From: Frankiaceae bacterium
GTDB lineage: Bacteria > Actinomycetota > Actinomycetes > JAFAQI01
DNA length: 54,651 nucleotides
Reading direction: 5' to 3'
NCBI GenBank assembly: GCA_019239875.1
Contig: JAFAZI010000022.1
Span: forward strand, 1 to 54,651
Shown here piece after piece: positions 5,778 to 26,943 of this stretch (positions are counted from its first letter, which is position 1; the number at the start of each line of letters is the position of its first letter). The notes beneath the pieces were generated by a model. The model was given only the letters and a program-made list of their open reading frames with translations, was not told where the DNA came from and ran no database searches. Position numbers and translations under genes: made by a program.

Positions 5778-5818
5778 CGAAACGCCCGACTCCGGCACTC
5801 GCCGGGTCGGGCGTTTCG
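5778..5818. terminator. Bidirectional intrinsic terminator between hup and the CSD-like gene
   Basis: The outer stem CGAAACGCCCGAC (5778-5790) pairs perfectly with GTCGGGCGTTTCG (5806-5818). An inner stem CCGGC/GCCGG closes on an ACTC loop, with a single T bulge. The stem is flanked by A- and T-containing ends in both directions, and the genes on either side converge, so it can stop transcription from both strands. Confidence 0.85.
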
Positions 5819-22895: not shown

Positions 22896-23108
22896 ATGGC
22901 CAAGGCCCTTCTCGGACATGTTGGGCACGACCTCGACCTTCGGATGGTTTCCGAACTCCGCCGGATGCGGGACCGCGTCCGCGAGCTGGAGGGCGAAGTA
23001 GCTCGGCTCCAGGCCGCCAACAAGGCGCTGTCGAGCGGACTCTCCATCGACGGCGAGATGCTGACCCTCGAGGTGCCCGACCGCATCAGCGAGCCCGCGC
23101 TCGCGTAA
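22896..23108 (+). CDS. Small coiled-coil protein of unknown function
   Basis: This 70-residue protein starts MAKALLGHVGHDLDLRMVSE, followed by a heptad-rich helix (residues about 20-48, with ELRRMRDRVRELEGEVARLQ) and a short C-terminal strand region ending EPALA. Similar small proteins exist in other actinobacteria, with the conserved GHVGH...D start, but I know no function. GGAGG lies 10 bases before the ATG. It stands alone between acyP and smc, followed by a 23-bp inverted repeat. Confidence 0.75.
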   Translation: MAKALLGHVGHDLDLRMVSELRRMRDRVRELEGEVARLQAANKALSSGLSIDGEMLTLEVPDRISEPALA

Positions 23109-23159
23109 GCACCGCCGCACGTAACCGCCGTACCTAGGCGACCCCGCGCCGGAGTCATC

Positions 23160-23223
23160 CGCCAAACCGTCTCAAATCGTTGATTCGGCGCTGCCCAAAC
23201 CAACGATTTGAGACGGTTTGGCG
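23160..23223. repeat. Perfect 23-bp inverted repeat (hairpin), 18-base loop
   Basis: The left arm (23160-23182) and right arm (23201-23223) are perfect reverse complements over 23 bases; the arms begin CGCCAAACCGTCTCAAATCG and end with its complement. The arms have about 50% G+C, lower than the surroundings. No T-run follows. It lies 52 bases after the coiled-coil gene and 169 bases before smc. It may be a factor-independent-like terminator, an mRNA-stabilising hairpin or a palindromic mobile or repetitive element. The rest of 23109-23391 holds only a weak -10-like TAGCGT (23338-23343). Confidence 0.9.
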
Positions 23224-23391: not shown

Positions 23392-26300
23392 GTGCACCTG
23401 AAGAGCCTGACCCTCAAAGGGTTCAAGTCGTTCGCGTCGTCGACGACACTGCGCTTCGAGCCTGGCATCACCGTTGTCGTCGGCCCGAACGGGTCCGGCA
23501 AGTCCAACGTCGTCGACGCGATCGCATGGGTGCTGGGCGAGCAGGGCGCGAAGTCGCTTCGCGGCGGCAAGATGGAGGACGTCATCTTCGCCGGTACGGC
23601 GGGGCGTCCGGCGCTCGGTCGCGCCGAGGTCATCCTCACGATCGACAACACCGACGGAGCGCTGCCGATCGACTTCAGCGAGGTCACGATCTCGCGGACG
23701 ATGTTTCGCAACGGCGGGTCGGACTACGCGATCAACGGCAGCCCGTGCCGGCTCCTCGATGTCCAGGAGCTCCTGTCGGACTCCGGGATCGGCCGGGAGA
23801 TGCACGTCATCGTCGGACAGGGTCAGCTCGACAACATCCTGCATGCATCGCCTGAGGACCGCCGCGGGTTCATCGAGGAGGCGGCCGGCGTTCTCAAGCA
23901 CCGCAAGCGCAAGGAGAAGGCGCTTCGCAAGCTCGACGCGATGCAGGTCAACCTCAATCGCCTCCAAGACCTGACCAACGAGCTTCGGCGGCAGCTCAAG
24001 CCGCTGGGGCAGCAGGCTGATGTCGCTCGCCGCGCGAGCGTCATCCAGGCGGATCTGCGCGACTCGAGACTGCGCCTGCTCGCCGACGACCTGTGCGGAC
24101 TACGAACGACGTTGAACGCCGAGGTCGCTGACGAGACCGCGCTGCTCGAGCGGCGGGCCAAGGTCGAGGCGGACCTGGCCGAGGCGAGCCGCCGCGAGAC
24201 CGAGCTCGATCAGGCGCTGGCGGCACAGACCCCACGCCTGGCCCGGGCCCAAGAGACCTGGTACCGCCTGGCGGGGTTGCGCGAGCGACTGCGCGGCACG
24301 GCGTCGCTCGCCGCCGAACGGGCGCGTCACGTCGCCATCGACACCGACATCGAGTCGGTCGGGCGGGATCCGCAGGCATGGCAGGCCGAGGTCGACGCGA
24401 TCCGGGTCGACGAGGCGGCGGTTGCGCGTGCCCTCGTCGACGACCGTGGCCGGCTGTCCGCGGCCGAGATCGAGCGCGTCCGGCTCGAGGAGCAGCTCGC
24501 CCACGAGGACCGAGCGTTGCGCGAGGCGCGCCAGCTGCTCGCCGACCAGCGAGAAGGCCGGGTCCGGCTCCACGGTGAGGTCAACGCGCTCCGCACCCGC
24601 TCGTCCGCCGCGGCGGACGAGATCGGCCGGCTGACGGCGGCCTGGGAGGAAGCCAAGGTTCGTGCGGCAGCCGCGCAGGCGGAGTTCGCGGCGGTCGAGA
24701 GCGAGATCGCGGGGCTCGACTCCGGCGAGGTCGACCTCGATGCGGCATACGAGGCCGCCGCGTCGGCGCTCGAAGCCGCCGAGGAGCACGTCACCTCGCT
24801 GCAGAACGAAGAGCGTGAGGTGGAGCGGCAACGCAGTGCCGCGGTCGCCCGCCGTGACGCCCTCGGGTTGGGCCTGGACCGCAAGGACGGTGCCGGCGCG
24901 CTGATCGCGGCCCGCAACGAGCTCCCGGGGGTGCTCGGCACCGTTGCCGAGGTCGTCACCGTGAAACCCGGGTTCGAGACCGCCGTCGCTGCGGCGCTCG
25001 GCGCTGCTGCCGACGCCGTCGCGGTGACCTCGCTGGCGGATGCTGCCGCGGCGATCAGCCTGTTGAAGCGCGAGGACGCCGGTCGCGCCGGCCTCCTGGT
25101 CGGCGGTGGGGCAGCCGGTGGAACCGACGATCTGCCAGCGCTGCCGGACGGTGCCCGATACGCCATTGACGTCGTGTCCGCACCAGATCTGCTGCGTCCG
25201 GCACTGCGTCGGCTGCTCGACCGGACAGCGCTGGTCGCGGATGTCGAGACCGCACAGCGCCTGGTCACTGCCAACCCACAACTGCGGGCGGTGACCTCAG
25301 ACGGCGATGTCCTCGGCGTCGGCTGGTCAGCCGGCGGATCGTCGGCCGCGCCGTCACTGCTGGAGATGCGAGCCGCGCACAGCGAAGCCGAGCAGATGGT
25401 GACCGACCTCACCCATCAGGCAGACCGCCTCCGATTCGCCCTTTCGGCGGCGACCGAGGAAGCGGCACGCGCCCAGGAGGACTTGGACGCGGCGGTTGCC
25501 GAGCTGCACGAGTCCGATGCGAGGTTGGCGGCGGTCGCGGAACGACTGGGCCAGCTGGGAGCGGCGGCCCGGGCCGCCGCGGGGGAGACCGAGCGTTACG
25601 CCCGCGGCGTCGAAGCGGCGTCCAACGCCCGCGACCAGGCGCTCGAAGGTCTTGCCGCCCTCGAGGCCCGCCTCGAAGCGGCGGAAGCGGCGCCGGAGGA
25701 TCAGACGCCTGATGAGTCCGAGCGCGCTCGGGTTGAACAGTTGGTGGTCGCGGCCCGCGCCGCGGAGGTCGAGGCTCGGCTGGCGGTCCGGACCGGTGAG
25801 GAGCGGGCGCACGCCCTCGCGAACCGGATCCAGCAGATCGAGCAGGCGGCAGCAGCCGAGCGAGCCGCCCGCGAGCGGGCGCTCGCGCTTGCTGAGCGCC
25901 GGGCTCGCGAGGCGGTGGTCGCCGCAGCCGTTCGTGCGGTGGCGGGCATGGCGCTGACCGCGCTCGAACGCTCCCTCGAAGCAGCCGCGGCCGAGCGGAC
26001 GGCGACCGAGGAGCAGCGAACCGTCACCGAAGGTGAGCTGCTCGCCGTACGAGCCACGGTTCGTGACCTCGCGACAGAGCTCGAGACCTTGACCAGCGCC
26101 GTGCACCGCGACGAGGTGGCACGGGCCGAGCAGCGGATGCGGATCGAGACCCTCGAGGCGAAGGTGATGGAGGACTTCGGCATCGAGCCGGCAGCGCTCG
26201 TCGCCGAGTACGGCCCCGAGACCCTGGTCCCGCCGCCGTCGGACGCGGCCGAAGGCACCGCGCCGGTGCCCTACGTCCGCGAGGAGCAGGAGAAACGCTG

Positions 26301-26943
26301 GCGGGCCGCCGAGCGGGCGCTGGCGCTGCTCGGCAAGGTCAACCCCCTCGCGCTGGAGGAGTTCGCAGCGCTGGAGGACCGGCACAAGTTCCTCTCCGAT
26401 CAGCTCGAGGACCTCAAGGCGAGCAAGCGAGACCTCCTCGTCGTCATCAAGGAGGTCGACGACCGCGTCGAGCAGGTGTTCAAGTCGGCGTACGAAGACG
26501 TCGCGCGGGAGTTCGAACTGGTGTTCGGGGTGCTGTTCCCCGGCGGCGCCGGGCGGCTCGTGCTGACCGACCCCGACGACTGGCTCGCGACCGGCGTCGA
26601 CGTGGAAGCGCGACCGCCCGGAAAGAAGGTCAAGCGGCTTTCGCTGCTCTCCGGCGGCGAACGGTCCCTGACCGCCATCGCGTTGCTCGTCGCGATCTTC
26701 CGGGCGCGGCCCTCGCCGTTCTACGTGATGGATGAGGTTGAGGCGGCGCTGGACGACCGCAACCTCGGCCGGCTGGTCGGCCTCATGGCAGAGCTGAAGT
26801 CGACGTCGCAGCTCATCGTCATCACCCACCAGAAGCGGACGATGGAGATCGCCGACGCGCTGTACGGCGCGTCGATGCGAGGCGACGGCATCACCGAGGT
26901 GATCAGCCAGCGGCTGCGTGAGCCGGAGCCCGAACCTGTGTAG
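23392..26943 (+). CDS. smc: Chromosome segregation protein SMC
   Basis: SMC is the ATPase of the condensin-like complex with ScpA and ScpB that organises and separates chromosomes. The 1183-residue protein is normal length. Seen here: Walker A GPNGSGKSNVVDAI (residues 31-44), two long coiled coils, a central hinge (about 500-660, containing GVLGTVAEVVTVKPG), the ABC signature LLSGGERSLTAIALL (about 1083-1097) and Walker B YVMDEVEAALDD (about 1110-1121). GGAG lies 8 bases before the GTG. ftsY follows by 27 bases. Confidence 0.98.
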   Translation: MHLKSLTLKGFKSFASSTTLRFEPGITVVVGPNGSGKSNVVDAIAWVLGEQGAKSLRGGKMEDVIFAGTAGRPALGRAEVILTIDNTDGALPIDFSEVTISRTMFRNGGSDYAINGSPCRLLDVQELLSDSGIGREMHVIVGQGQLDNILHASPEDRRGFIEEAAGVLKHRKRKEKALRKLDAMQVNLNRLQDLTNELRRQLKPLGQQADVARRASVIQADLRDSRLRLLADDLCGLRTTLNAEVADETALLERRAKVEADLAEASRRETELDQALAAQTPRLARAQETWYRLAGLRERLRGTASLAAERARHVAIDTDIESVGRDPQAWQAEVDAIRVDEAAVARALVDDRGRLSAAEIERVRLEEQLAHEDRALREARQLLADQREGRVRLHGEVNALRTRSSAAADEIGRLTAAWEEAKVRAAAAQAEFAAVESEIAGLDSGEVDLDAAYEAAASALEAAEEHVTSLQNEEREVERQRSAAVARRDALGLGLDRKDGAGALIAARNELPGVLGTVAEVVTVKPGFETAVAAALGAAADAVAVTSLADAAAAISLLKREDAGRAGLLVGGGAAGGTDDLPALPDGARYAIDVVSAPDLLRPALRRLLDRTALVADVETAQRLVTANPQLRAVTSDGDVLGVGWSAGGSSAAPSLLEMRAAHSEAEQMVTDLTHQADRLRFALSAATEEAARAQEDLDAAVAELHESDARLAAVAERLGQLGAAARAAAGETERYARGVEAASNARDQALEGLAALEARLEAAEAAPEDQTPDESERARVEQLVVAARAAEVEARLAVRTGEERAHALANRIQQIEQAAAAERAARERALALAERRAREAVVAAAVRAVAGMALTALERSLEAAAAERTATEEQRTVTEGELLAVRATVRDLATELETLTSAVHRDEVARAEQRMRIETLEAKVMEDFGIEPAALVAEYGPETLVPPPSDAAEGTAPVPYVREEQEKRWRAAERALALLGKVNPLALEEFAALEDRHKFLSDQLEDLKASKRDLLVVIKEVDDRVEQVFKSAYEDVAREFELVFGVLFPGGAGRLVLTDPDDWLATGVDVEARPPGKKVKRLSLLSGGERSLTAIALLVAIFRARPSPFYVMDEVEAALDDRNLGRLVGLMAELKSTSQLIVITHQKRTMEIADALYGASMRGDGITEVISQRLREPEPEPV

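Follow-up and report, generated by a model that had tools for sequence, protein, structure and literature searches.

The window analyzed here, a 54,651-nt stretch of DNA from a Frankiaceae bacterium, contains a 64-bp palindromic element (23160..23223, no strand assigned) between a 70-codon gene (22896..23108, + strand) and smc (23392..26943, + strand). The left arm, CGCCAAACCGTCTCAAATCGTTG (23160..23182, + strand), and the right arm, CAACGATTTGAGACGGTTTGGCG (23201..23223, + strand), are 23 bp long and fully complementary, and they enclose an 18-nt loop (23183..23200, + strand), exactly as the initial annotation had described; when two mismatches are tolerated, the arms grow to 29 nt and the loop shrinks to 6 nt. 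The chance expectation for perfect 23-bp palindromes of this kind at the window's base composition is ~7e-7, and a chance palindrome was dismissed on that number. The element is the sole occupant of its gap, 51 nt past the stop codon of the 70-codon gene and 168 nt ahead of smc, and its GC content of 0.55, compared with 0.66–0.69 in the surroundings, bears out the earlier impression of a more balanced composition. The RNA of the element is predicted to fold with −57.9 kcal/mol (z = −6.5), and none of the shuffled sequences was equally stable. We looked for a U-tract or terminator-like site at the element and found none, in agreement with the earlier remark that the hairpin lacks a T-run and is not a standard terminator. 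The spacer from the upstream stop codon to the element (23109..23159, + strand) has 23 C versus 14 G, counted on the sequence.

The 70-aa product of the upstream gene is a coiled-coil-like protein with no Pfam match, which adjoins smc across the family as well (46–71% identity in ten genomes). The window's only other long palindrome is a 13-bp hairpin at 5778-5818 (CGAAACGCCCGAC...GTCGGGCGTTTCG), which lies in a convergent gap and has A and T runs within its stem ends.

A BLAST search with the window element against its own assembly (a draft of 4.15 Mb in 206 contigs) found 40 places, and a covariance model built from these found 54, a lower bound in that scoring covered 150 of the 1227 first-look candidates. 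The copies are spread over many contigs, mostly one per contig. The hairpin had been described as lying alone, which holds for its gap and not for the genome; among the options originally offered, that of a dispersed palindromic element, to be recognized by many copies in a whole-genome search with the 64-base element, is the one that emerged. A one-arm pattern search gave 105 matches, compared with 2 in the reversed control. Among the matches listed, near-exact arms occur as close pairs, with no solitary half-site and, in this draft assembly, no long element bounded by such arms; a DNA uptake sequence, which is marked by numerous solitary half-site copies, was dismissed on this pattern. Some copies form a divergent subfamily with CGCCAAAGCG-type arms, and at L033:402-419 a partial additional arm (TCGAGACGGTTAGGCGAT) lies immediately downstream of a complete copy. 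MITEs are marked by a target-site duplication and by an autonomous partner with matching terminal repeats; in the aligned flanks, no constant direct duplication is visible.

To describe the placement of the copies we used gene calls from a simple codon-score ORF finder, so that the figures below are approximate. The first 40 copies all fall outside called genes. The 54 copies comprise 27 at convergent junctions, 23 at co-directional and 2 at divergent ones, with 2 at contig ends; intergenic space alone predicts 6.8 convergent (p 2e-11) and 19.3 divergent copies (p 2e-8). Co-directional copies are closer to the upstream stop codon in 20 of 23 cases, at a median distance of 15 nt, compared with 77 nt from the next start. 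The flanking genes are varied, with ordinary metabolic and signalling functions, for which reason a common flanking gene family was dismissed, and no transposase appears among the 25 commonest flanking families. Most convergent genes in the genome have no element.

The conservation of the element is concentrated in its arms. In an alignment of 40 copies, mean column identity is 0.962 for the arms, 0.551 for the central loop and 0.474 for the immediate flanks; in the window copy, the family's conserved arm runs on to ~23185, and the fast-changing part is the central 10 bases of the loop, which most resemble those of the copy at C49:32889 (9/10 loop bases). Pairwise loop identity (0.405) exceeds that of shuffled loops (mean 0.297, maximum 0.316), indicating that the loops share common ancestors and have diverged while the arms were kept or corrected. 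Because 14 of 30 base pairs never vary among the aligned copies, the arm sequence either matters or is homogenised. In a set enriched for divergent copies we observed paired changes in 36 cells, compared with 19.6 in shuffles (0 of 500 as high); shifting the pairing partners by one to three columns lowers the number to 5–23. Part of this signal could come from relatedness or from conversion between the arms. Additional base pairing of the flanks outside the stem was dismissed, since complementarity there is not above that of shuffles. On both strands the sequence approaching the palindrome is rich in C and poor in G and then turns T-rich: 58 stop-to-element spacers have 0.49 C and 0.21 G, compared with 0.345 and 0.328 in 133 control 3′ UTRs, and the spacer in the window agrees with this composition. 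The C-rich approach is also present on element sides that face gene starts.

We compared 11 genomes of the same family, each from another genus, and found no copy of the element with either model. Among 48 more distant genomes of the class it is absent from 47, the exception being a marginal match (E 1e-3). The exact dyad pattern has no match in GTDB r220, and viral contigs, phages and plasmids likewise gave none, so an origin from any of these three was dismissed. Rfam 15 returned only two miRNA hairpin matches far under their gathering scores. The family is apparently a REP-like palindromic repeat, dispersed at gene 3′ ends and specific to this lineage. In sister genera we compared 20 orthologous convergent junctions, and in 17 of them the genes overlap or lie ≤21 bp apart; the remaining three gaps are 45, 74 and 113 bp, compared with 78–215 bp in the element's own genome. 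Scanning these junctions for hairpins with loops of at most 14 nt turned up a single strong one, and a longer-loop inverted repeat was seen by eye in the 74-bp gap of genome G001.

At the smc junction the palindrome is absent in ten of ten relatives. The initial annotation would have called the hairpin an accident if close relatives lacked it and no other copies existed; relatives, here of other genera, do lack it, but the other copies rule out an accident. Six of the relatives (G006, G011, G009, G005, G010, G002) instead carry a canonical hairpin and T-run ∼15–30 nt past the same stop codon, so a transcript end is to be expected at this junction. These terminators have the form GGGCGCC...GGCGCCC plus a T-run (L086, L087, L088, L089, L090, L094), and elsewhere in the same relatives U-tract terminators are rare.

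Canonical hairpin-plus-U-tract sites follow only 1–3% of suitable 3′ ends in the element's own genome, so that other end-forming elements must be needed; they are just as rare in the samples taken from four sister genera, except in G001 (3/30 co-directional ends). The 77 element-bearing ends yielded 0–1 canonical terminator calls. An intrinsic terminator consists of a GC-rich hairpin followed by a U-tract, a form that the element does not have: T stands before its stem and A after it, opposite to the order in a bidirectional terminator. The genome does encode Rho. In mycobacteria intrinsic terminators are described as few, Rho-dependent sites as the majority, and Rho is reported to favour purine-rich RNA (PMC12288462); Term-seq in Streptomyces found stable hairpins with few U residues at RNA ends (PMC12207403), and in E. 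coli the ends that Rho generates undergo processing by 3′-to-5′ exonucleases (PMC7815308).

De novo palindrome searches on samples of the sister genomes revealed a second dispersed palindrome, with arms GTGATCTTGACGTT, in three sister genera (L102, L133, L163-L182). Its exact pattern occurs 12 times in G004, 4 in G003, 5 in G008 and 5 in G005, and is absent from the genome studied here. These copies also follow stop codons (12 convergent, 12 co-directional, 1 divergent; n = 26), and their approaches are likewise C-rich. The outer arms are invariant among the copies found in G003, G004 and G008, in a search that itself required 12 of those bases. The inner arms are species-specific, differing even within one genus (G003 versus G008), and their differences between species are paired changes (34 cells versus 12.7 shuffled, 0 of 500). 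This pattern is one of concerted evolution inside genomes with palindromicity retained.

Several further palindromes were observed. In the element's own genome, L077:15265-15322, L079:2871-2930 and C53:1479-1535 belong to a second family with arms around TGACGNCGNCACGCCG, nearly single-copy, behind co-directional genes and without a U-tract; L037:1297-1344 and L080:10645-10684, with GTGAAGGTTCCGCCACGA-like arms, may form a third. The sister genus represented by G001 has palindromes based on AAGCAATGTSRCATTGC (L112:6946-6993 and L117:16929-17007), which a GCAATGTGGCATTGC repeat on L071 of the own genome resembles.

It is instructive to compare the element with known systems. Like the GTAG and CGTC REP superfamilies, it is a multi-copy, dispersed intergenic palindrome at the 3′ ends of convergent and co-directional gene pairs, and like CGTC REPs it has no dedicated transposase (PMC3733652); in that survey, by Di Nocera et al. 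(2013), conv-REPs lie ≤20 bp from both 3′ ends and uni-REPs near the upstream gene, and the text does not mention Actinobacteria. Strict REP membership nevertheless fails on tag, RAYT and size: the consensus, TATCGCC...GGCGANAAG, has no unpaired terminal GTAG/CGTC tag (CGTC occurs only within the stem), the Y1 transposase (RAYT) of GTAG REPs is found neither in this genome nor in its family, and the element is 64 bp long rather than 20–40. The Bor, Ype and Efa families (Petrillo et al. 2006, PMC1590033) are also sequence-related stem-loops that prefer gene 3′ ends, but they have other sequences and hosts, and the element here has a counterpart of unrelated sequence in sister genera. The U-tract-less (I-shaped) terminators reported in mycobacteria and the U-poor hairpins of Streptomyces are likewise stable hairpins that come soon after stop codons in high-GC actinobacteria and contain few U residues or none; they are gene-specific and varied in sequence, in contrast to one dispersed sequence (PMC12288462, PMC12207403). 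Integron attC sites share the position behind stop codons and the variable loops, and many copies fit GCCCAAC...GTTGGGC, but our copies are scattered singly, half of them in convergent gaps, and form no head-to-tail cassette arrays.

A stable hairpin halts 3′-to-5′ exonuclease trimming. We infer, with a probability of about 0.5, that this lineage-specific REP-like repeat serves as a bidirectional 3′-end hairpin, which most likely stabilises RNA ends in concert with Rho-dependent termination. Transcripts of either strand would fold the element into a very stable hairpin; polymerase would be released by a route other than classical intrinsic termination, most likely by Rho, which would load on a 3′ UTR rich in C and poor in G; the hairpin would then block 3′-to-5′ exonucleases and give each of two converging messages a stable 3′ end, and copies would have spread in the lineage as a non-autonomous repeat. 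The evidence for a 3′-end role is the set of 54 places with their convergent excess, divergent deficit and closeness to the upstream stop, the conserved arms around a faster-changing loop, the C-rich, G-poor spacers, the paired changes both in divergent copies and between the sister species' own palindromes, the presence of a Rho gene, and a placement equal to that of REPs (PMC3733652). The mRNA-stability hairpin proposed in the initial annotation fits this placement and is plausible. Several observations speak against a 3′-end role. The arms are more conserved in sequence than base pairing demands, which points instead to recognition by a protein or to recent copying; the C-rich approach also faces gene starts and may simply be part of the element; the spacers offer little room for Rho to load, and Mycobacterium Rho is reported to prefer purine-rich RNA (PMC12288462); and the majority of convergent genes in this genome have no element.

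A selfish REP- or MITE-like repeat without host function, inserted widely and surviving only where harmless (behind genes and in convergent gaps), is the most serious competitor, yet a doubtful one. Confinement to this lineage, near-identical copies with shared loop sublineages, as copying predicts, and the turnover implied by the other family in sister genera all speak for it. Mobilisation by Y1/RAYT was dismissed, however, because PF01797 is absent from this genome and its 11 relatives; no longer arm-bounded element was seen in the draft assembly; and plain post-insertion decay would not leave arms at 96% next to loops that share ancestry but have diverged to 55%. The copies also hug stop codons more tightly than promoter avoidance alone requires.

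A site acting at the DNA level, bound for instance by gyrase or a nucleoid protein where converging polymerases accumulate supercoils, would account for sequence conservation in excess of pairing (14 of the 30 base pairs are constant) and for the strong preference for convergent junctions, and E. coli REPs do bind gyrase. We consider it unlikely, given that 23 copies sit co-directionally right behind the upstream stop and that sister genera have a sequence unrelated to it in comparable positions. An ordinary intrinsic terminator, possibly bidirectional, would also be a stable, GC-containing hairpin past stop codons, but the T-run is missing after the stem on both strands, with T before it and A after it, and the near-total lack of canonical calls at element-bearing ends makes this explanation quite improbable; having no U-tract, the element is not a classical intrinsic terminator. 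Least credible of all is the cis-regulator of smc suggested by the initial annotation, to which only the position upstream of smc lends support. At least 53 further copies adjoin unrelated genes, the element is missing ahead of smc in ten relatives, and the window copy is closer to the upstream stop than to the smc start; smc is context here, and nothing points to a specific tie between it and the element.

REP and stem-loop repeats are already known; the sequence and lineage of this element differ from theirs. It raises the question of what spreads REP-like repeats without a RAYT. Tentatively, the results may be extended to the whole family: where U-tract terminators are scarce, lineages might equip gene 3′ ends with mobile palindromes acting as bidirectional 3′-end modules, whose sequence would be homogenised within a genome and turn over between genera or species, with outer arms such as GTGATCTTGACGTT kept across genera. 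How messages end and are protected without U-tracts is an unsettled question in high-GC actinobacteria. Dozens of near-identical, naturally replicated 3′-end hairpins at known positions, together with the empty orthologous junctions of sister genera and counterpart families of unrelated sequence, provide a ready set on which to test a role of dispersed palindromes in fixing the 3′ ends of RNAs.
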